From NCBI GenBank assembly GCA_012959965.1, contig DUCF01000066.1, positions 5,886-69,885 on the forward strand: DNA of 64,000 nucleotides. Reading direction: 5' to 3'. The stretch comes from Candidatus Thioglobus sp. GTDB taxonomy: Bacteria; Pseudomonadota; Gammaproteobacteria; PS1; Pseudothioglobaceae. Of the stretch, positions 8,151 to 31,108 are shown in pieces; positions within the stretch are counted from its first letter, which is position 1; the number at the start of each line of letters is the position of its first letter. The position numbers and the translations under genes are program-made. Under the pieces are notes generated by a model. It saw nothing but the letters and a program-made list of their open reading frames with translations. It was not told where the DNA came from and did not search any database.

Positions 8151-8179
8151 AAAAAAAGCCCGCATCAGCGGGCTTTTTT
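8151..8179. terminator. Bidirectional Rho-independent terminator after frr
   Basis: The stem GCCCGC-ATCA-GCGGGC (8158-8173) is preceded by a run of A and followed by a run of T, so it can end transcription from frr on the plus strand and from the acidic secreted protein gene on the minus strand. The two genes converge here. Confidence 0.93.
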
Positions 8180-10760: not shown

Positions 10761-11533
10761 GGCCCAGTTTCAATAAAGCAGCTTCACAGTATAATGCTCA
10801 CGCATTTTTACAAGATGAGATAGCGCTTCGTCTTTCAGAAAAGCTTAATGTCATTGCAATCAATCCTGGAGTGGTGATAGATTTAGGCGCAGGCACGGGT
10901 CTATTAAGCAGCAAACTCTCGCAAAAACTGCCGAACGCACAACTGGTTTGTGTTGATTTCGCCCAGCAATCATTACAATCAAACCCAGCCCAATACAAGG
11001 TTTGTGCAGATGCTCACCAGTTACCATTTGCGGATAAAAGCATTGACTTCATTGCCTCCAACCTAATGATGCAATGGTGTCCAGATTTAAAAATTCTGTT
11101 TACTGAGTGTCATCGAGTATTAAAACCTGGTGGCCTAATGCTTTTCTCAACTTTTGGCCCAGACACACTGAAAGAATTAAAGCGCAGTTGGTCTGTCGTC
11201 GACTCCGAGCCTCATGTCAACACGTTTACGGACATGCACGATATTGGCGACCAAATGCTACAATCTGGCTTTAACAACCCTATTATGGAAATGGAGACAC
11301 TCACCCTAACCTATGAAAAGGTCATCGATCTGATGCGAGACTTAAAAGGCATTGGCGCGCAAACTGTACGTAACCGCTCAAAATCATTAATGGGAAAAAC
11401 AAAGTTTAGCAAGATGATTGAGATGTATGAGGCCTATCGAAAAGAGGGCAAATTACCCGCAACTTACGAAGTAGTTTACGGCCATGCTTGGAAGAGCGAG
11501 AATAAACTCAACCAAATCGCACTAGAAAATTAA
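10748..11533 (+). CDS. bioC: Malonyl-[acyl-carrier protein] O-methyltransferase
   Basis: BioC methylates the free carboxyl of malonyl-ACP so that fatty-acid synthesis can build the pimeloyl chain of biotin. The 261 residues contain FNKAASQYNAHAFLQDEIA at the N-terminus, SAM motif I VIDLGAGTGLLS, the acidic end of strand 2 (CVDFAQQ), and the BioC-type segment ASNLMMQWCPDLKILFTECHRVLKPGG. The tail (VVYGHAWK) also fits. The start lies inside the upstream ZnuA-like gene. The stop overlaps the convergent ybjQ-type gene. Other biotin genes are not in the window. Confidence 0.93.
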   Translation: MSPIRPSFNKAASQYNAHAFLQDEIALRLSEKLNVIAINPGVVIDLGAGTGLLSSKLSQKLPNAQLVCVDFAQQSLQSNPAQYKVCADAHQLPFADKSIDFIASNLMMQWCPDLKILFTECHRVLKPGGLMLFSTFGPDTLKELKRSWSVVDSEPHVNTFTDMHDIGDQMLQSGFNNPIMEMETLTLTYEKVIDLMRDLKGIGAQTVRNRSKSLMGKTKFSKMIEMYEAYRKEGKLPATYEVVYGHAWKSENKLNQIALEN

Positions 11534-11862
11534 GATACCGACTGGTTTTTTTCCAATTTAACCGCAGTGCCACAAGCAAACAACTCTGCCGAGCCTTGTA
11601 GTACTGTTGACGTGGTAAACCTGACACAAACAATGCCATCAGCGCCCATAGATTTTGCGTCAGCAATCATTCTATCGATCGATTGCTCTCTAGATTCGGC
11701 TATCATCTTAGTATATTCAGTGATTTCACCACCAATCAAAGTGCGTAAGCCCGCAAGAATGTCTTTGCCAATATGTCTCGCGCGAATGGTGTTGCCTTTT
11801 GCAAGGCCAAGCGTTTCGATAACCTGGTAATCTGAAAATGTATCTTGTGTTGTAATTAACAT
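11530..11862 (-). CDS. YbjQ/UPF0145 family protein
   Basis: A 110-residue member of the YbjQ family, small cytoplasmic proteins forming pentamers, annotated as putative heavy-metal-binding although the function is not settled. Family marks are MLITTQDTFSDYQVIETLGLA near the start, RARHIGKDILAGLRTLIGGE, and the core GADGIVCVRFTTSTV. The start is set at 11862 because MLITT is the conserved N-terminus. It is preceded by a 66-residue membrane protein gene on the same strand with a 13-base gap, forming a likely two-gene unit. Confidence 0.9.
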   Translation of the reverse strand: MLITTQDTFSDYQVIETLGLAKGNTIRARHIGKDILAGLRTLIGGEITEYTKMIAESREQSIDRMIADAKSMGADGIVCVRFTTSTVLQGSAELFACGTAVKLEKNQSVS

Positions 11863-11875
11863 CCCAACTCTCCTT

Positions 11876-12076
11876 TTATCTTTTAACTGTTTTTGAATAA
11901 TGATCGTCCTCTTTATTTCTAAGACGCTCAACAATAACCTTGATAATCAATAAAATAACACCCGTAGCCCCAGCAAGTGCAGATAAACCTAAGCCACCAA
12001 CTGGAACAATATCAATCACCACCAGCAGCCAACAAAATGCAGCAATGCCTAACAGTGAATAAGCCAGTCTTTCCAT
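11876..12076 (-). CDS. Small two-helix membrane protein
   Basis: I do not recognise a named family. The 66 residues hold two predicted membrane segments (SLLGIAAFCWLLVVIDIVPV and ALAGATGVILLIIKVIV) and a basic tail ending in TVKR. The start at 12076 follows GGAGA by six bases; an ATG at 12088 in frame overlaps that site and is less likely. It sits directly before the ybjQ-type gene on the same strand, so a shared role in the envelope or stress is possible but unproven. Confidence 0.7.
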   Translation of the reverse strand: MERLAYSLLGIAAFCWLLVVIDIVPVGGLGLSALAGATGVILLIIKVIVERLRNKEDDHYSKTVKR

Positions 12077-12116
12077 GGTCTTCTCCATAACATGATCAGT
12101 GCATTCTACACCAGAC

Positions 12117-12968
12117 CTATATATTTAAAAGCACTTCATCACCCACTTCCACGACAGTCATCAGATTTTCGGCGCTTGAAACAATTGCATTCTGTCCAAA
12201 AATTGCATTTTTCTCATCACCACTCATATTCAATTTAGCCAATGTTGTAAGTGGCTCCTTCGAATTTCTCACAACACCGGTGTCTTGTTGGATTGTTGTA
12301 ATTTTGCAGCGAATACAAGGTTTTTTCATAGCGAACCGATAACGACCAGCCGCCTCATCAAGATAATACGAGGTTTTTTTTTCTATCTTCTCAAGCCCAT
12401 CAACAACAATATTTGGTCGAAAGCAATCCATCGTCACTGCTGATTCACCATTTAATACAAGACTGGTGTTTAAATAATCAAGACTTACACTTGAGGTGAT
12501 TAAATATGGAAACTGGTCGGAAAATGCACTTTGGGCTTGTTCAGAATTCAAGTATTTATTTGGGACTGCTCGCCTCTCATTTGGAGAAAATCTAACCAGC
12601 CTTAGAGCCGATCCCTTGTATTTTCCCAAATGACGAGTGAGCCAAATAGATACCTCTTCCCCCTCATCATACGCCTCACAGCAATCTTGCCAAACTGTTG
12701 CTTTCACCAATGTTTTCCGACCAAAATCCAGCGAAATAACTAAAGGCGTAGAATCTGTGCAATATAGTGTGAGCTTAGTTGAATCAATTTCCACCCCAAT
12801 TGTTGCCATAGATTCAATTTGGCGCTGAGTAATAAAATGATATTGATTATCGGTGATCATCCACTCTCTGTCATATTGAAAGCCATTTATACCAATTTGC
12901 GCCCGCTGAAGCGAGATTCCTGAAAGAGATTTAACAGGGTAAATATACAAATGACTGATATTAATCAT
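12117..12968 (-). CDS. MOSC domain protein (YcbX/mARC-like)
   Basis: This is a molybdenum-cofactor-binding reductase-type protein. The N-terminal MOSC_N beta-barrel starts with ISHLYIYPVKSLSGISL and has GFQYDREWMITD; the MOSC domain follows with FRPNIVVDG and the cofactor cysteine in KKPCIRCKITTI (conserved R-C pattern). At 283 residues it lacks the C-terminal 2Fe-2S ferredoxin domain found in E. coli YcbX, so it resembles the two-domain mARC forms, which reduce N-hydroxylated compounds using partner proteins. It follows plsY by three bases and is probably cotranscribed with it. Substrate inferred only from family. Confidence 0.87.
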   Translation of the reverse strand: MINISHLYIYPVKSLSGISLQRAQIGINGFQYDREWMITDNQYHFITQRQIESMATIGVEIDSTKLTLYCTDSTPLVISLDFGRKTLVKATVWQDCCEAYDEGEEVSIWLTRHLGKYKGSALRLVRFSPNERRAVPNKYLNSEQAQSAFSDQFPYLITSSVSLDYLNTSLVLNGESAVTMDCFRPNIVVDGLEKIEKKTSYYLDEAAGRYRFAMKKPCIRCKITTIQQDTGVVRNSKEPLTTLAKLNMSGDEKNAIFGQNAIVSSAENLMTVVEVGDEVLLNI

Positions 12969-12971
12969 TAA

Positions 12972-13598
12972 TCAGTTTCTTCTATTGCTCAGCCACTGCC
13001 TGTAATTTGGGGTATGTCTATAAAGTATCAACACAAACAGAAACATAGTTGCTATTAGAAAATAGTTGTAATCTAAGTCGAGTAGTGGGGAATACCACTG
13101 CGGCTGATAATGATACGCCCAAACAGTAAAAATCGGAAACACGGCAGTGCCAACAGTAGAGGCAATAAACGGAGTCTTGTTTGAGCAGAAAAAAGCAATA
13201 CCGTACAATAACAAAGAAACCAATATCGCAATGGGTGACAAGACCAGCATAACTCCTGCACTGGTGGCAACACACTTTCCTCCCCTAAATTTTAAGAAAA
13301 CCGGATAGGCATGACCAATGACCGAACTCACGCCAATAACAATCATCAGGTTGTCTGCTAAATTAAGCCAATACTTAGCAAGGATAATGGCGAGAGCGCC
13401 TTTACTGACATCAAAGAACAAGGCCAGTGCGCCTGGAATTTTTCCGGCCGATCGGATGGTGTTAACTGCACCAACATTGCCGCTGCCTTTGGTTCGTATA
13501 TCTACTCCCCACAACTTACCAAAGAGCAAAGAAAATGGAATAGAGCCCAAAAGATAACTGAATAGCGCGATCAAAACAAATTCAATATTAAAAGTCAT
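12972..13598 (-). CDS. plsY: Acyl-phosphate glycerol-3-phosphate acyltransferase
   Basis: PlsY is an inner-membrane enzyme that moves an acyl group from acyl-phosphate to glycerol-3-phosphate, the first step of phospholipid synthesis. The 208 residues have the family's conserved loops: YLLGSIPFSLLFGKLWG, DIRTKGSGNVGAVNTIR, and GHAYPVFLKFRGGKCVATS, with several membrane helices between. The start overlaps the end of the upstream aminotransferase gene by 11 bases. Many gammaproteobacteria have plsY beside tsaD/folB; that is not the case here. Confidence 0.96.
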   Translation of the reverse strand: MTFNIEFVLIALFSYLLGSIPFSLLFGKLWGVDIRTKGSGNVGAVNTIRSAGKIPGALALFFDVSKGALAIILAKYWLNLADNLMIVIGVSSVIGHAYPVFLKFRGGKCVATSAGVMLVLSPIAILVSLLLYGIAFFCSNKTPFIASTVGTAVFPIFTVWAYHYQPQWYSPLLDLDYNYFLIATMFLFVLILYRHTPNYRQWLSNRRN

Positions 13599-14796
13599 TA
13601 CTTGTCGCCTTCTCTAATAATAATCCCAGTCGCTTTACTTCTTTCAAAGACATGCAGTCATAACAAGGAAGATAAATCATTGACTTGATTAATTGTGCCG
13701 CCCTAGATGCAGTATACGCACTTTTTTGAGATGCATCTTCAACCGCAATTAAGCTTTGTCTAGTGGTTGCATCAAAGCCATTTTTTCTAAGCAGCGCAAT
13801 CAAGCCATCAACCTCTTGCTCTTTTTTAACAATAATAGGAAATACCCAATAAATATGACTTGCAGCACCGTCGCCCGGACAACTGTAATATTTACTGGCG
13901 AAGCTGTAGAGTATTTTTCCGCGTTCAGTTTGCGCTCGATAGCGCTGCGAACGATTATCTTTAAAGCGTCTTTTCATCACCGACATTAAAGATGAACAAG
14001 GTCTTTTTCTAATATTTTGAAAAAACCCATCACCGGAAAAACCTTTAGACCACTTATAGAGTATCTTATCGTAATCAATACTAAACCACTGGCAATATTT
14101 AACAAGTACGGCAAATGAGAAACTCAGCGTGAGGGTTTTTAGAAAGCTGTATTTAAGGATTTTTTTCAAATAACTTGACGTGCTTTGAATGGGATAGATC
14201 TTGTATGCTTTAATCATTAATTCTCTTAATGCCGTATCTTGGACTTCTAGTATTGCACCGCCCAGCGCAGTAGCCGTTTTAATGGTACCGAAACTGTACA
14301 TTGAGATATCGGTCAACTCATTAGGCTTGCAACTCTCGACGCCATAGGACTGAGCAAAGTCCTCAATCAGCAAAAGATCTCGATTTTTGACCACACTGAC
14401 AATGTCATCAATTGGACTGTGGGTGCCGAATAAGTGCGTAATAATAACCGCACAAGTGTTATCGGTAATAAGCGCCTTAACCGAGTTTGCACTGGGCAGA
14501 GTCGTGCGCTCATCTATCTCAAGGGGCACAGCAACCAAACCATGCTCTTCTATGATGCTAATCATATCCGGAATAGTGAGAGCTGAAATAAGCACTTCAC
14601 CGCCCTCCTGATAACTCAACGTTTTGAGTAATAAATCAAAGCCCGTTCTAACCGAAAAGCAGGTGAATGTCGACTGATCACCCCACTGCGCGTTGATCGC
14701 TTTTATGGTTTTGCTGAAATTGGGCGGAACAATGCACTTGCCCATGCCAAATAAGAGATCTGAATATGAAATGTCTATGCGCTTTCTAATCCACAT
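13588..14796 (-). CDS. DegT/DnrJ/EryC1/StrS-family PLP aminotransferase
   Basis: Family members transfer an amino group to keto-sugars or related carbonyl compounds using pyridoxal phosphate. The 402-residue protein shows the fold's landmarks: VRTGFDLLLKTL at the cofactor phosphate end, VIITHLFG, the LLIEDFAQSYG motif with the PLP-stacking Asp, and the Schiff-base lysine in MYSFGTIKTATALGGAIL. The middle contains an unusual hydrophobic/basic stretch (about residues 200-260) that is less like standard sugar aminotransferases. No nucleotide-sugar or glycosyltransferase genes are adjacent, so its product is unknown. It overlaps plsY by 11 bases. Confidence 0.85.
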   Translation of the reverse strand: MWIRKRIDISYSDLLFGMGKCIVPPNFSKTIKAINAQWGDQSTFTCFSVRTGFDLLLKTLSYQEGGEVLISALTIPDMISIIEEHGLVAVPLEIDERTTLPSANSVKALITDNTCAVIITHLFGTHSPIDDIVSVVKNRDLLLIEDFAQSYGVESCKPNELTDISMYSFGTIKTATALGGAILEVQDTALRELMIKAYKIYPIQSTSSYLKKILKYSFLKTLTLSFSFAVLVKYCQWFSIDYDKILYKWSKGFSGDGFFQNIRKRPCSSLMSVMKRRFKDNRSQRYRAQTERGKILYSFASKYYSCPGDGAASHIYWVFPIIVKKEQEVDGLIALLRKNGFDATTRQSLIAVEDASQKSAYTASRAAQLIKSMIYLPCYDCMSLKEVKRLGLLLEKATSNDF

Positions 14797-25043: not shown

Positions 25044-25073
25044 GTTGTGAAATATCAACAATTCTATGATTCA

Positions 25074-25949
25074 ATGCACCTAAACCAACTGCTAATTTTT
25101 TCAAAAATCGCCCAACATAAAAGCTTTACCAAGGCCGCTACCGAGTTACAAGTCGATAAATCAACAGTCAGCAATAATCTCGCGAAACTTGAATCCCGTC
25201 TGGGGGTTAGATTATTAAATAGAAGTACTCGCAGCGTGACTCTTACTGAAGCTGGACAGGGCTATTATCAGTACTGTCAACAGATTGTAGAGACCGCCGA
25301 AGAGGCCGAGCAATTTACCGCTAATCTCGGCAAGGAAGCGGTTGGATTATTACGCGTAGCAGCTTTAAACGATTTTTCACAAATATTCATTCCCAAAGTT
25401 ATCCAGCCATTTATGGAAGCCAATCCGAAAGTTGAAATGGAACTTATACTTGAATATCGAAACACCGATTTAGTTAAGGAACGTGTCGACATTGCTTTGC
25501 GTTTTGGCATTGTACCTCTTGAAGATTCCAATCTCATTTCAAAAAAAATTCTTGATGATGAGTTAGGCCTTTATTGCTCACCTGGGTTTATCGATAAATA
25601 TGGAAAACTTGTGGATGTCAGTCAAATAAACGATTTTGATTTGATTGAGCTTTTTATGGGTCCGCACATCCAACTCCCCATTAAGAAAGGCAATGTCAGC
25701 TATACAATTGATATGAAAGGTAGATTCAAGGTAAATGACTTACTAAGTGCCAAAGATGCTGCGTTATCTGGCTTAGGGATTGCAGCCCTATCCAAACTCC
25801 TTAGTCAGGAGGCGGTTGAGAAAAAACAACTAGTGCCACTACTGACTGACTGGCAATTTCCAAGTGTTGCTGTATACGCAATCTACCCCAGTCGCCAGTG
25901 GATGCCGGCAAAATTAAAAGTTTTTTTATCGTATCTCGAGCAACTATAA
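25074..25949 (+). CDS. LysR-family transcriptional regulator
   Basis: A 291-residue regulator. The N-terminal winged helix-turn-helix reads LNQLLIFSKIAQHKSFTKAATELQVDKSTVSNNLAKLE and NRSTRSVTLTEAG; the effector domain follows from LLRVAALNDFSQIFIP. The group resembles the CrgA-like branch by the GLLRVAA and LRFG motifs. It is divergent from mgsA, so it most likely controls the amine operon. The start is ATG at 25074, since a candidate promoter places the transcript start after the alternative GTG at 25047. The ligand is unknown. Confidence 0.9.
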   Translation: MHLNQLLIFSKIAQHKSFTKAATELQVDKSTVSNNLAKLESRLGVRLLNRSTRSVTLTEAGQGYYQYCQQIVETAEEAEQFTANLGKEAVGLLRVAALNDFSQIFIPKVIQPFMEANPKVEMELILEYRNTDLVKERVDIALRFGIVPLEDSNLISKKILDDELGLYCSPGFIDKYGKLVDVSQINDFDLIELFMGPHIQLPIKKGNVSYTIDMKGRFKVNDLLSAKDAALSGLGIAALSKLLSQEAVEKKQLVPLLTDWQFPSVAVYAIYPSRQWMPAKLKVFLSYLEQL

Positions 25950-25998: not shown

Positions 25999-27417
25999 TT
26001 AGTACAGCCTTAGATACTCCTCAACTTCCCATTCTGTCACCGCCTGGTGATAGCGATCCCATTCGTCCATCTTGTAGGCGAAGAATTGTTTCATCATCGA
26101 CTCACCCAAAACTTCGCGGGCAAAATCACTCTTTTGTAATGCCTCCAATGCCTCAAGTAAGTTGCGTGGCAACGAAGTAATATTAGCTTCTTTGATTTCT
26201 TCTTTACTCAAGGAATACAAATCCAAATTGAGAGGATCACCAGGGTCGATCTTATTCTTAATACCATCAATCGTTGCCGCTGTTGTTAAAGCAAGTGACA
26301 AGTACGGGTTCATGCACATATCCGCCGCACGATTCTCAATACAAAAACGATTTTGAGGCAAGCGAACCATACAAGAGCGGTTGTTATCACCATAAGCCAT
26401 TTGGGTTGGCGCCCAGGTAACTGTCCCCCCCTCGAATCCACCCACTTTAGGCACCAAGCCATTATAAGAATTCACCGTTGAACAGGCAATGGCAGTAATT
26501 GCATGGCCGTGTTTTAATATGCCACCAATTGCATGGTAGGTCTCTTCTGAAAACTTGCCGTCTTCGCCCTCAAAAATATTACCGCCACCGTCAGTGTCAG
26601 TCAAACTGAAATTAATATGCGCACCAGAGCGCCAATCGCCAATTGTAGGCTTCGGCATAAAGGTAATAAACATACCATGGTTTTTTGCTATCTCTTTTAA
26701 CAAGACTCGCAAGAAAACAAGGCGATCGGCCATTTCAAGAACATTGGTATAAGTAAAGTCTAATTCAAATTGCGAATAAGCACCCTCAGCAACTACGTCT
26801 TTAACACCCCAACCGAGACCGTTCAAGATATCAATCATTTCGCCAAGAAAGCCCATCGATTCAATGCTGTATTCAGCATCATAACCAAAGGCTTGACGGC
26901 GTGGACGAAGACCTTTACCAACAGCAGGGTCATCATCAATAGCCTTAACCGGCTGACCATTCTCCCAACGCATTGCAATAAATTCAGGCTCAATGCCACA
27001 GAAGGCTTTAAAGCCAGCATCTTCGGCATCCTTAACTGCACGTTTAAGTGTTTGACGTGGACAAAGGTTGTAAGGTTTACCCTCCCACCATAAGTCTGCA
27101 AAAACCCAGGCGCAAGTTTCATCCCAAGGGCAAATAACCAGGGTATCCAAATCTGGAACAGGAATTTGATCAGAGTCAGCTGGCCCTAATTCTGGCACAA
27201 ATGAAATAGAGTGGACTGCGAATTGCGGACCTTTGCCCATACATAAGGCTTCAAATTCACACATTGGCACCGGTTTGGTTTTTGGAATGCCAAGTAAATC
27301 AATCCAACAGGATAGAATGTATTTAACACCTGCCTTTTCCAGTTTTTCTTTAGCCTTAATAACGCGCGCTTTCGATGGCAGCGCATCAACCATTGATGTT
27401 GGATATGTATTTGTCAT
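25999..27417 (-). CDS. Second glutamine synthetase-like ligase, probable gamma-glutamyl-amine synthase
   Basis: A 472-residue glutamine-synthetase-fold protein that differs clearly from the GlnT/GmaS paralogue in this window. It has VKYILSCWIDLLGIPKTKPVP, FCGIEPEFIAM at the first metal site, AEGAYSQFELDFTYTN, HGMFITFMPKPTIGDWRSGAHINFS, NSYNGLVPKVGGFEGGTVTW and NRFCIENRAADMCMNPYLS. Members of this branch often join glutamate to an amine, as in aniline and isopropylamine breakdown. It is the last gene of the Rieske operon (Rieske, glyoxalase, cupin, Lrp, ligase). The start at 27417 follows AGGAGAA; the in-frame start at 27447 is not favoured. Confidence 0.82.
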   Translation of the reverse strand: MTNTYPTSMVDALPSKARVIKAKEKLEKAGVKYILSCWIDLLGIPKTKPVPMCEFEALCMGKGPQFAVHSISFVPELGPADSDQIPVPDLDTLVICPWDETCAWVFADLWWEGKPYNLCPRQTLKRAVKDAEDAGFKAFCGIEPEFIAMRWENGQPVKAIDDDPAVGKGLRPRRQAFGYDAEYSIESMGFLGEMIDILNGLGWGVKDVVAEGAYSQFELDFTYTNVLEMADRLVFLRVLLKEIAKNHGMFITFMPKPTIGDWRSGAHINFSLTDTDGGGNIFEGEDGKFSEETYHAIGGILKHGHAITAIACSTVNSYNGLVPKVGGFEGGTVTWAPTQMAYGDNNRSCMVRLPQNRFCIENRAADMCMNPYLSLALTTAATIDGIKNKIDPGDPLNLDLYSLSKEEIKEANITSLPRNLLEALEALQKSDFAREVLGESMMKQFFAYKMDEWDRYHQAVTEWEVEEYLRLY

Positions 27418-27449
27418 ATATTCTCCTAATAACTCGTGTTGATACAAAC

Positions 27450-28001
27450 TTAAAGGTTTTCGTGTGACTTTAACAAAAACTGATTTTTAAAGGTTGTTAA
27501 TCCTTTCATTACTTCTACATTGTTGATATCGTCTTTATTAAAACAATGTTCGTCGAGAAAACGGCATAAGGTGTCATCGCTATTCGAAACAATTTCCACC
27601 AAAAGGTCGTAACGCCCAGTAACCCAGATAATAAAAACAATTTCAGGACAATCCTGCAACCTCTTAGCAACCGCCCCAGGGCTTGAAGTAGGCGCAACCT
27701 TAATACCCAACATCGAATCTGTTGCATAATTAATTGCAGAAGGATCAACCAAGGCTTTTATTTGCAAAACTCCAGCATCTTTCATTCGATTCACACGATT
27801 TCTCACCGTGCCTTCGGAAACATCCAGCGCTGTGGCTATCTCTTTAAAGGGTAAGCGTCCATCCATCTCAAGCATGCCAATAATTTGTTGATTTAATTTA
27901 TCACCCAAAGTATCTCTTGATGGGATACGTAGCAATTGATCGCCACCATTCACGTCGGCTGTTTGATTCAAAGACATAACAGGTTTGCTAGAATTATTCA
28001 T
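27450..28001 (-). CDS. Lrp/AsnC-family transcriptional regulator
   Basis: A 183-residue regulator with an N-terminal extension of about 30 residues before the helix-turn-helix (DKLNQQIIGMLEMDGRLPFKEIATALDVSEGTVRNRVNRM), then the ligand-binding RAM domain (SMLGIKVAP, VFIIWVTGRYDLLVEIV, GLTTFKNQFLLK). AAGGA precedes the start. Location inside the Rieske/ligase operon suggests that it senses an amine or amino acid and controls this operon, perhaps through the inverted repeats upstream of the Rieske gene. Confidence 0.9.
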   Translation of the reverse strand: MNNSSKPVMSLNQTADVNGGDQLLRIPSRDTLGDKLNQQIIGMLEMDGRLPFKEIATALDVSEGTVRNRVNRMKDAGVLQIKALVDPSAINYATDSMLGIKVAPTSSPGAVAKRLQDCPEIVFIIWVTGRYDLLVEIVSNSDDTLCRFLDEHCFNKDDINNVEVMKGLTTFKNQFLLKSHENL

Positions 28002-28016
28002 TAATAGTCCTTAGTT

Positions 28017-28412
28017 CTATGGCATATCTTCTGGATCAATGCCCGGAACAAAAGTGATGCCAGCTTGTTGCTTCCAATCGTGGGGATAAGCCGCATAAAA
28101 AATCACGCATTTTTCATCACACTCATAAGCAATGTGATTGTCGCGAGGAATATAGAGAACATCACCTGGTGAGCATGTATAGGACTTTCCATCACAAGTC
28201 AGTCTAAACTCACCTTCCATACAATAAATAATTTCATCACAAGTCAGGTCCCATGGGACCGACACTTGATTCAAGAAATTAAGCCCGCCACACATTGTGT
28301 CACTGACGTTGCTTGTGACAAATGGTTTGATATAGGACTTTCCTGGCTCTAAAGTATGCAGACGATTTTCAATATCGCTAAATTTATACAACTTGGGTGT
28401 TTTATCACTCAT
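28017..28412 (-). CDS. EutQ-like cupin protein
   Basis: A 131-residue single-domain cupin. The barrel is visible from PWDLTCDEIIYCMEGEFRLTC through YTCSPGDVLYIPRDNHIAY. The pattern is nearest to the EutQ/DUF861 group, whose best-known member is an acetate kinase in ethanolamine use. Usual metal histidines are only partly present (the E in DEIIY and the H in NHIAY), so metal binding is uncertain. AGGAGA precedes the start. It sits between the glyoxalase-like and Lrp genes, all on one strand with gaps under 20 bases. Confidence 0.78.
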   Translation of the reverse strand: MSDKTPKLYKFSDIENRLHTLEPGKSYIKPFVTSNVSDTMCGGLNFLNQVSVPWDLTCDEIIYCMEGEFRLTCDGKSYTCSPGDVLYIPRDNHIAYECDEKCVIFYAAYPHDWKQQAGITFVPGIDPEDMP

Positions 28413-28427: not shown

Positions 28428-28850
28428 TTAGTTTGGATTAATGGTTTCGTTTAATTCAACAACATAGCCGTCAGGATCTTTCAAGAAAGCTAAAATTCTT
28501 GTCCCATGACTCATTGGACCAGGTGGTGCTATGATTTCAGCACCTTGCGCAGTGAGGTCTTCAAAAGCTTTATGTACATCTGGGGTTTCAATGCAAAGAT
28601 GGCCCCAGCCATTGCCCTTGTCGTAGTGCCCTTCTTGGTCCCAGTTATGAGTTAACTCCAAGGTTGGGAATTCTGCTTCGGGGCCATAACCAATAAAAGT
28701 ATTGGTGTAACGGCCACCTGGATAGTCGGTCTTTCTTAACACCTGCATTCCTAAAATATCGCAGTAAAAATGGATAGACTTATCTAGATCCAACACCCTG
28801 ATCATTGTGTGGGCCAGTCTATAATTCGGTTTTTTATTCTCTTCAAACAT
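28428..28850 (-). CDS. Glyoxalase I-like protein (lactoylglutathione lyase family)
   Basis: A 140-residue vicinal-oxygen-chelate protein. The four metal ligands of glyoxalase I can be placed: His in LAHTMIRVLDLDKS, Glu in PTLELTHNWD, His in GWGHLCIE and Glu in GYVVELNE. The family motif YCDILGMQVLRKTDYPGG is also clear. Glyoxalase I converts the hemithioacetal of methylglyoxal and glutathione to lactoylglutathione. Placement in an amine-oxidation operon suggests removal of a reactive aldehyde formed there, or of methylglyoxal from an aminoacetone-like substrate. The family call is firm; the role is inference. Confidence 0.88.
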   Translation of the reverse strand: MFEENKKPNYRLAHTMIRVLDLDKSIHFYCDILGMQVLRKTDYPGGRYTNTFIGYGPEAEFPTLELTHNWDQEGHYDKGNGWGHLCIETPDVHKAFEDLTAQGAEIIAPPGPMSHGTRILAFLKDPDGYVVELNETINPN

Positions 28851-28870: not shown

Positions 28871-29971
28871 TTATTTATTCTGTGTCACAGCAGTTGAAAT
28901 CATTGTTTGGAAGGCGCGAACACTATCCTCCCAATGAGGTGATAATAGACCACCATCTTCCGCAACAGGTGACGCTCTACCGAGCTGCATGCGCGCGCAG
29001 ATTGCATGGTCTTCTTTGTGCACATCCCACCATAGTTGTTTTATCTCTTCTATCTCAGGCGCCGATAAAGATTGACCTTCTGTAGTGTAAATTACTCTTT
29101 TCTGAGTTGTACGCCCAGAGTCTACGGGTACGCTCAAATACACGCCAAGTTGATCGGGGAAATAACGCCCAATAATAAAATTCGGAAATAGGGTTAGATA
29201 GCGCGAACTCACCGAAAGACAGCCCTCTACTTGATCACTATCATCCAAATCGACCGCACTACCAAGACACACACCATCAACGATTGTGTAGTGATCTTCA
29301 AGCGGTTGATTGGTTGTTGTGCGGTGTACAAATTGAACGTGATAAGGCTCAATAAAATTTTCAATAAGAAATTTCCAATTGCACGAAATTTCACCGAAGT
29401 CCAATGTCGCCACAGGACTAACTTGATCAAAATTTATACCATCTAAATGTCGAATCAAGGGCTCCGCATAAACTTCAAATTCTGGCGCATCACCGCTTAA
29501 ATTGATAAAAATCCAATCGTGCCAAACTACCAACCTTATTGGTATAAGGCCATGTTCCGACATTTCAAAACCTTCTGGGTGATGTTCTTTACCACCAAAA
29601 AATGGGGTTGCGCAAAGCTCGCCATCCAAATTATAGGTCCAAGCATGGTAAGGGCAGCACAACATGGCACCGACATTCATCGGCTCATCAACCAGCTTAA
29701 GGCATCGATGAGAGCAGGCATTATGAAATGCACCTATATCACCTCGCGTATTTTTGATTAGCAGTACGGGTTTTCCAGCCACTATCACTGGCTGTGCATC
29801 GCCAGGCTCAGCAAGCTCATGAGCAAAGCCAACAAAAACCCAGTTATCAGAAAACAGTGTGTCGTATTCAGCTTGTAAAAATTGCTCATCATTGTACGCA
29901 GCAGCAGGCAAGCCATGCTTTAGCACGCCTTGCTCGAAGAACGCAGACAATTCAATTGTATTCTTACTCAT
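28871..29971 (-). CDS. Rieske non-heme iron oxygenase, alpha subunit
   Basis: A 366-residue oxygenase. The Rieske [2Fe-2S] ligands are CSHR and, 17 residues on, CPYH (NACSHRCLKLV, LCCPYHAWTYN). The mononuclear iron site is NWKFLIENFIEPYHVQFVH, with the third ligand likely the Asp in HWEDSVRAF. The pattern and length fit single-component alpha oxygenases that demethylate or hydroxylate small quaternary amines and aromatics. No beta subunit, ferredoxin or reductase is in the window. Start at 29971 follows GGAG; a TTG at 29983 overlaps that site. It heads the operon and has two inverted repeats upstream. Confidence 0.92.
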   Translation of the reverse strand: MSKNTIELSAFFEQGVLKHGLPAAAYNDEQFLQAEYDTLFSDNWVFVGFAHELAEPGDAQPVIVAGKPVLLIKNTRGDIGAFHNACSHRCLKLVDEPMNVGAMLCCPYHAWTYNLDGELCATPFFGGKEHHPEGFEMSEHGLIPIRLVVWHDWIFINLSGDAPEFEVYAEPLIRHLDGINFDQVSPVATLDFGEISCNWKFLIENFIEPYHVQFVHRTTTNQPLEDHYTIVDGVCLGSAVDLDDSDQVEGCLSVSSRYLTLFPNFIIGRYFPDQLGVYLSVPVDSGRTTQKRVIYTTEGQSLSAPEIEEIKQLWWDVHKEDHAICARMQLGRASPVAEDGGLLSPHWEDSVRAFQTMISTAVTQNK

Positions 29972-30008
29972 TACACACTCCAAACATTAGGCAGCAAATT
30001 TTCTATAT

Positions 30009-30072
30009 TGGCAGATTGTTTCTGCCATATATTGCATTTAATGCAATATATAATAAGATATTTGCAATATAC
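30009..30072. promoter_or_regulatory. Two adjacent inverted repeats upstream of the Rieske gene, candidate operator
   Basis: TGGCAGA-TTGTT-TCTGCCA (30009-30027) is a perfect 7-base inverted repeat. It touches a second palindrome at 30027-30051 with perfect 12-base arms about a single T (core attgcatttaatgcaat). A further half-site, ttgcaatata, lies at 30063-30072. The set lies 38-100 bases before the Rieske start, the right place for control by the Lrp/AsnC or LysR product encoded nearby. Repeats are seen; the binding protein is inferred. Confidence 0.6.
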
Positions 30073-30241
30073 ACATATTTAATGGATATAAATGATAAAT
30101 ATGCAATTAATTTTGATATTTCTGAGTATTTGTGTCAGGTTGATACCAGTGAAGGAGCGTAAGAAGGGATTAAAACGAACTTCGAGTGATTTTCAGGGTG
30201 TCGTGAAATCTACAAACTGTATGGTTGTGATGATAAATAAA

Positions 30242-31108
30242 CTAAGAATATTTTTTACCCCAAATTTCAAGACTACTCGTTGCAAGAATAATCACTAAAA
30301 CTCCTACCCACTGAGAGAGGGCGAGTGAGTTATGGAAAGCAACAATGCCAATCATAATGGTAAATATTGGCTCAAAAAACATCACATTAGAGGTGCGAAC
30401 AGGGCCAATTTTTGCAATCGAATAAAAGAAGAAATAAAATCCGCCGATCATACCCACGGCCGAGGCCAAACTCCACTGAATCATCTCAAAGGTAACTGAA
30501 GCAATAGGCTCTGGCGTGATAATAAAATAAATCAGTGCAAATACACCTGTTGGCAATATCATCAGATATTTAATCAAACCCCAGCCCGGCTCCACGTCTT
30601 TATGACGTGAAAGAATATTAACCGCCGCCTGGGCAATAGACGCAATCGTTCCCCAGAAAACACCCCAAGCTTCCCAATCAGAGGCATCGCCTTGCACCAT
30701 TAGCCAAATACCAAACAGAGAGACAATTAACGCAGCTGCTGATATTAGGTCAATGGAGCGACTCTTCATCACCGAGTTGGCAAAAAAGGTAAACAGCGGG
30801 AAGGTGTAGATCACCACAACCGCTAGACTGAGTGGGATCAACTTGAGTGAGTACATATAACAGCCGACAAATACAGCCTGCAAAATGCTGATTGCAATCA
30901 GCCTCATATAAAGTGATTTCGTTTTTTTCTTTTTGCTGGTCTTGTCTAGCGCGCTTGAGAGTAACAGGGTTGTTGTGTAACGAACACAAAGCAAAAGAAA
31001 GACACTACCACCTGCAGCATAATACAAGGGTGCCATCGAAGCAGCGAACGAAAAAAAGAGTGCCGAGACAATAGCTGAAAGAATATTGACAGAGAGTAAC
31101 GCTTTCAC
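30242..31108 (-). CDS. EamA/DMT-family transporter
   Basis: A 288-residue inner-membrane protein with about ten hydrophobic segments in two homologous halves, typical of the drug/metabolite transporter superfamily. Marks are VVIYTFPLFTFFANSV at the end of the first half and the second-half FFEPIFTIMIGIVAFHN. Such proteins export amino acids or other metabolites. It is on the same strand as the Rieske operon but separated from it by the 270-base operator region, and its own start is followed upstream by the GDPD gene 90 bases away. Substrate unknown. Confidence 0.9.
   Translation of the reverse strand: MKALLSVNILSAIVSALFFSFAASMAPLYYAAGGSVFLLLCVRYTTTLLLSSALDKTSKKKKTKSLYMRLIAISILQAVFVGCYMYSLKLIPLSLAVVVIYTFPLFTFFANSVMKSRSIDLISAAALIVSLFGIWLMVQGDASDWEAWGVFWGTIASIAQAAVNILSRHKDVEPGWGLIKYLMILPTGVFALIYFIITPEPIASVTFEMIQWSLASAVGMIGGFYFFFYSIAKIGPVRTSNVMFFEPIFTIMIGIVAFHNSLALSQWVGVLVIILATSSLEIWGKKYS

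Follow-up and report, generated by a model that had tools for sequence, protein, structure and literature searches.

Which part of the gap in front of a Rieske oxygenase operon acts as an operator, and which protein would bind it? The question is raised by two perfect palindromes lying side by side upstream of such an operon in the window, the 64,000-nucleotide stretch of DNA analyzed here, which comes from a gammaproteobacterium with a 1.8-Mb genome. Comparison with related genomes revealed that the larger repeat, palindrome 2, is almost certainly a conserved operator of the Lrp/AsnC type in front of its own operon, a switch of an ordinary kind that is unusually well supported by evolution.

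Organization of the operon and its promoter gap

The operon is located on the minus strand and encodes a Rieske oxygenase, a VOC protein, an EutQ-like cupin, an Lrp/AsnC regulator and a glutamine-synthetase-like ligase. The product of 27450-28001 matched PF13404 (E 4.5e-11), PF01037 (E 2.2e-8) and Lrp/AsnC chains in the PDB. The features used below are as follows.

25999-27447, minus strand: glutamine-synthetase-like ligase, a type III / gamma-glutamylamide synthetase relative
27450-28001, minus strand: Lrp/AsnC-family regulator with an AsnC-type HTH and a ligand-binding domain, the proposed operator binder
28017-28412, minus strand: EutQ-like cupin
28428-28850, minus strand: VOC/glyoxalase-family protein
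28871-29983, minus strand: Rieske non-heme iron oxygenase, first gene of the operon, likely ATG at 29971
30009-30027, no strand: palindrome 1, in this genome only, over the -10 box position, absent from L032-L050
30015-30020, minus strand: degraded -10 equivalent AACAAT, where most relatives have TATAAT
30027-30051, no strand: palindrome 2, the full 25-bp palindrome with 12-bp arms, of which the outer 5 bp per arm are not consistently dyadic in relatives
30032-30046, minus strand: putative core operator, 15-bp dyad TTGCATTAAATGCAA, centre 30039, reading TTGCATTTAATGCAA on the plus strand
30062-30076, minus strand: candidate middle site ATGTGTATATTGCAA, 30 bp from the core, including the half-site at 30063-30071
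30092-30106, minus strand: candidate distal site TTGCATATTTATCAT, 60 bp from the core
30242-31108, minus strand: EamA-family transporter, upstream and co-directional, joined to the Rieske gene in the Lrp-less clade

The centre of the core dyad is approximately 68 bp upstream of the likely Rieske ATG. Between the EamA and Rieske genes, the window lacks (at 30120-30243) a segment of about 3.8 kb that is present in L033 (3035-6852) and L034; in these relatives it carries a glycerate kinase, a 2-hydroxyacid dehydrogenase and a second Rieske oxygenase. A 4.4-kb contig of the same bin (C32; locus L032) contained matching sequence and a second Rieske 5' end, with 78% DNA identity to the window copy. 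This contig may represent a genuine second locus or may have strayed into the bin from a related species; the contamination of the bin was 2.5%, and only one Lrp orthologue was found in it.

Palindrome 2 is far from a chance repeat

Both perfect inverted repeats and a further half-site were found where the sequence-only reading had placed them. Palindrome 1 is TGGCAGA-N5-TCTGCCA at 30009-30027, and palindrome 2 has a 12+1+12 layout, ATATATTGCATT-T-AATGCAATATAT, at 30027-30051, so that base 30027 is common to the two; the extra half-site TGCAATATA is located at 30063-30071. The intergenic gap (29984-30241) comprises 258 bases with 30% GC, and 1000 dinucleotide shuffles of it were used as the null for inverted repeats. 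An arm of at least 12 bases was reached with a probability of only 0.001. Elsewhere in the 64-kb window, just one other inverted repeat with 12-base arms (spacer of at most 12) was present, at 8152, and this repeat was terminator-like, being GC-rich with A/T tails. Palindrome 2 is therefore far from chance. Palindrome 1 by itself is not clearly beyond chance, as repeats of its class (arms of at least 7, spacer of at most 12) arose in the shuffled gaps with P 0.33, a value that fell to 0.009 when at least 4 of the 7 arm bases had to be G or C, a criterion picked post hoc. Two or more repeats of this class occurred in one shuffled gap with P 0.066. The earlier claim that two such palindromes are far from chance thus holds for palindrome 2, and the pair is less rare than it implied.

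Palindrome 2 is conserved with compensatory changes

The upstream regions of orthologous operons were aligned, giving 18 promoters with 11 distinct sequences. A 15-mer of the form TTRC-N7-GYAA was found at a fixed place in all 18, and the two sides of the dyad had changed together, from G-C to A-T at positions 3/13 and from A-T to T-A at positions 5/11. Among the 11 distinct sequences, 88% of the dyad positions were paired, compared with 31-44% in slid registers, and the covariation score of the dyad was reached by none of 500 shuffles. The conservation of palindrome 2 extends beyond the genus, because L044, which has the operator, comes from another genus of the same family (G042). The centre of the 15-bp dyad is variable and A/T-rich, as in operators of the Lrp/AsnC family.

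The geometry of the promoter was also conserved. In most promoters, TATAAT follows 9-10 nt after the 15-mer, placing the dyad at the position expected for the -35 box. The best -35 match covered only 1-3 of 6 bases in all 18 promoters, and the -10 box was perfect in most of them. An exact search of the genome with TTRCATTWAATGYAA gave a single match, at 30032..30046, and the composite of operator, N10 and TATAAT occurred once per genome in 11 genus genomes, always at this promoter, which suggests that the regulator is local. A genome-wide regulon for palindrome 2 was also sought and rejected, as the 26 matches with at most two mismatches were little above the 18 for the reversed control. Three other one-mismatch sites were read out and were all in or at genes, which by eye were a histidine ammonia-lyase-like frame, an unnamed coding frame and a glycine-cleavage-T-like gene.

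Additional motif signals were present in the gammaproteobacterial promoters at -30/-31, -50 and -60/-61 from the core, near multiples of the helical repeat, although against permuted alignment columns they were marginal (p 0.04-0.08). The half-site described earlier corresponds to the signal at -30. In the distal site, the half TTRCATATT was strongly conserved in relatives, where it stands before the divergent oxygenase promoter; in that promoter, as judged by eye from the alignment, a TATTAT-like box is separated by about 10 nt from a conserved half-site.

Palindrome 1 is private to this genome

Palindrome 1 was absent from all relatives examined and from the second promoter copy of the same bin (L032). 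At its position, L032 and L033, whose Rieske protein is 90% identical, contained AAGGATATAATTTGCCA, which shares only the TTGGCA side. A conserved compound operator of two palindromes, as the sequence-only reading had envisaged, is thus not supported; conservation in close relatives, which it had named as the check, was found for palindrome 2 and not for palindrome 1. Its view of the region as a promoter operator was supported by the compensatory changes in palindrome 2.

In the window copy, palindrome 1 overlies the degraded -10 box, AACAAT instead of TATAAT. Its perfect 7-bp arms are GC-rich (the type with P 0.009), are exactly at the -10 position and, as RNA, fold at -10 to -11 kcal/mol, so one could envisage a second operator or leader hairpin that newly evolved in this species and acts together with palindrome 2. 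We consider this unlikely, given that the repeat is conserved nowhere among the relatives examined and that a third of the shuffled gaps contained repeats of its general size. The exact pattern occurred once in the genome, and near matches (1-2 mismatches) numbered 6, compared with 3 for the reversed control, revealing no clear regulon. An intrinsic terminator, with a GC stem and a T run, was sought in 29950-30250, and no terminator-like site was present. Palindrome 1 is outside the conserved mechanism.

The site and the Lrp gene occur together

All 15 scored promoters whose cluster includes Lrp had palindrome 2 as their top motif match (p <= 0.04), a count that takes in L032, whose contig ends before any Lrp could show, and the site was absent from all four scored promoters without Lrp in the cluster. 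Of the 29 genus genomes, 18 contained an Lrp orthologue. Genome-wide, none was found in G007, G014, G017, G021 and G027 (completeness 61-95%); these five genomes have kept the Rieske gene, joined directly to the EamA gene, and the palindrome was absent in front of it. In L041, L048 and L050, the palindrome was found neither before EamA nor between the ligase and the second oxygenase. The Lrp-less genomes formed one clade, sister to the rest, so site and Lrp may have been lost in one step, and both losses could be due to a deletion that removed the entire promoter gap. This clade reads the operon from a promoter upstream of EamA with TTGACG and a good -10. The joining of the Rieske gene to the EamA gene in L041, L043, L048 and L050, loci without the operon Lrp orthologue, represents a natural regulatory rewiring.

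As the presence of palindrome 2 tracks the Lrp gene, the operon's own Lrp/AsnC protein, already suggested by the sequence-only reading, is the best candidate for the ligand of this site. The LysR product, which that reading had included in its proposed binding check, was not implicated. Its gene (25047-25949) borders the operon at its end and has been retained in L033, and control of the promoter by the LysR protein through one of the palindromes can be imagined on this basis. This is very improbable, as L033 is the only genus orthologue locus in which the gene is adjacent and has no palindrome 1, and the operator is present in L034-L047, where LysR was not found beside the cluster.

The genome encodes eleven Lrp/AsnC proteins, so the dyad might instead be bound by one of the other ten, or by a dimeric regulator of another family, with the linkage to the operon's Lrp being incidental. 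Such an arrangement seems improbable, because the site is present where the operon's Lrp orthologue is present and because cluster and Lrp are also linked in alphaproteobacteria, where three gene arrangements occur and the divergent one comes with a related dyad.

Comparison with alphaproteobacterial clusters

The Rieske-VOC-cupin-ligase cluster is also present in SAR11 and Ruegeria-like alphaproteobacteria. In most gammaproteobacterial orthologue loci, the Lrp gene is part of the operon; in most non-SAR11 alphaproteobacteria, it is upstream, downstream or divergent relative to the cluster; no Lrp gene was found near the cluster in SAR11 loci. Where Lrp and Rieske are divergent in Ruegeria and Leisingera, the gap between them holds related dyads of the TTGCGAATTTCGCAA type, typically three with a fixed spacing of 72 + 32 bp. 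Loci L100, L105, L072, L074 and L078 of these genera contained three CGAWWWTCG-type dyads at nearly constant 72 + 32 bp spacing. Across 23 alphaproteobacterial promoters, 24 exact CGAWWWTCG dyads were counted against 0.8 expected, and none was found in the SAR11 promoters, which have no Lrp nearby. The score of the generalised motif across alphaproteobacteria was weakly significant, and the core-dyad count was clear. The residues of the HTH recognition helix, SEGT[VI]RNRV, were nearly identical in the gamma and alpha groups. Where Lrp is downstream, the dyad was mostly weak or absent in alphaproteobacteria, and this lack of clear dyads weakens the generality of the pairing.

We also observed a strongly conserved non-palindromic block, TATTGTAAATCTTAATATTCTAAAATAGGGTTTTCAATATAA, between divergent oxygenase genes of SAR11 loci without a nearby Lrp (e.g., L081, L085 and L104), possibly the site of another regulator.

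Proposed mechanism

Palindrome 2 quite probably serves the operon's own Lrp/AsnC protein as its operator, and this protein would act as a local activator; from the comparative evidence, we infer binding by this Lrp, activation and a role for a ligand. An Lrp/AsnC dimer would bind to the 15-bp dyad TTGCATTAAATGCAA, approximately 10 nt upstream of the -10 box and at the usual place of a -35 box, and further dimers would probably join on the same face of the DNA, at weaker sites located upstream by about 30, 50 and 60 bp. Lrp would most likely activate the catabolic operon locally and in a ligand-dependent way, and in most relatives the divergent oxygenase gene is probably under its control as an activator too. 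Activation is favoured because the conserved promoters have a good TATAAT without a -35 box and because the clade without Lrp uses a promoter ahead of EamA in which TTGACG is combined with a good -10. Points against this reading include the decay of the window's -10 box to AACAAT and the ten other Lrp/AsnC proteins encoded in the genome.

It is possible, although clearly less likely, that the same protein represses from the same dyad, obstructing RNA polymerase at the -35 region until the substrate or an intermediate lifts the block. Lying immediately ahead of TATAAT, the dyad overlaps the -35 region, a classic position for blocking, and dual activator/repressor action is common among Lrp-family proteins (PMC2995911); however, the promoter has no usable -35 box to block, and the Lrp-less clade has a good one elsewhere.

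Palindrome 2 has parallels in known systems. Sites of the Lrp family are typically semipalindromic, 15 bp long and AT-rich at the centre, and they follow one another at two or three helical turns (PMC2995911, PMC10201364). The consensus of Ss-LrpB from Sulfolobus solfataricus is the 15-bp sequence TTGCAAAATTTGCAA (PMC4046817), and the core of palindrome 2 is similar to it in being a 15-bp dyad with TTGCA-N5-TGCAA arms and an A/T-only centre; Ss-LrpB also has several sites in one promoter, as may be the case here. In contrast, Ss-LrpB acts at an archaeal promoter with three cooperatively bound sites, whereas here one strong dyad is at -35 with weak auxiliaries. The operators of BarR, a beta-alanine-responsive Lrp-type regulator of Sulfolobales, are likewise 15-bp semipalindromes with AT-rich centres; their spacings of two to three turns may be shared by the candidate auxiliary sites here, and BarR is also linked to the catabolic gene that it controls; it differs in being archaeal, in its target enzyme and in that its ligand is established (PMC10201364). 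The PA2577/PA2576 system of Pseudomonas aeruginosa, which pairs an Lrp/AsnC regulator with an EamA-like transporter, also has a regulator that acts locally, and an EamA-family gene is near the cluster here as well, but the recognition sequence proposed there, CCTGATAAAAAAGG, is unlike palindrome 2, and no oxygenase operon is involved (PMC8707732).

Possible substrate and biological meaning

In L035, the cluster is followed at 11083-13988 by genes for glutamine amidotransferase, GXGXG and glutamate-synthase-domain proteins and then by a second glutamine-synthetase-like gene. By sequence, these genes look like an N-methylglutamate synthase set; such a set is not beside the operon of the window. 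Homarine is a lead for the substrate of the operon. A link of the operon to homarine catabolism is a guess, and homarine is one candidate because N-methylglutamate chemistry is common to methylated-amine routes. Homarine catabolism with N-methylglutamate dehydrogenase has been reported (Nat Microbiol 2026, cited in PMC13390433).

A more far-reaching scenario is offered tentatively and is rather doubtful as a whole: an Lrp/AsnC activator with a single target, its operator taking the place of the -35 box in a divergent promoter for two oxygenases, would respond to a marine methylated nitrogen compound, homarine being one candidate, and regulator and operator would have been lost together in one clade in which the operon was rewired to a constitutive promoter. 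The finding provides a specific, testable regulator-operator pair for a catabolic cluster of SUP05-type gammaproteobacteria, SAR11 and Roseobacter relatives. The ligand of Lrp would point to the substrate of the cluster, and the paired gain and loss of regulator and site across lineages would represent a clean, small case of regulatory rewiring.
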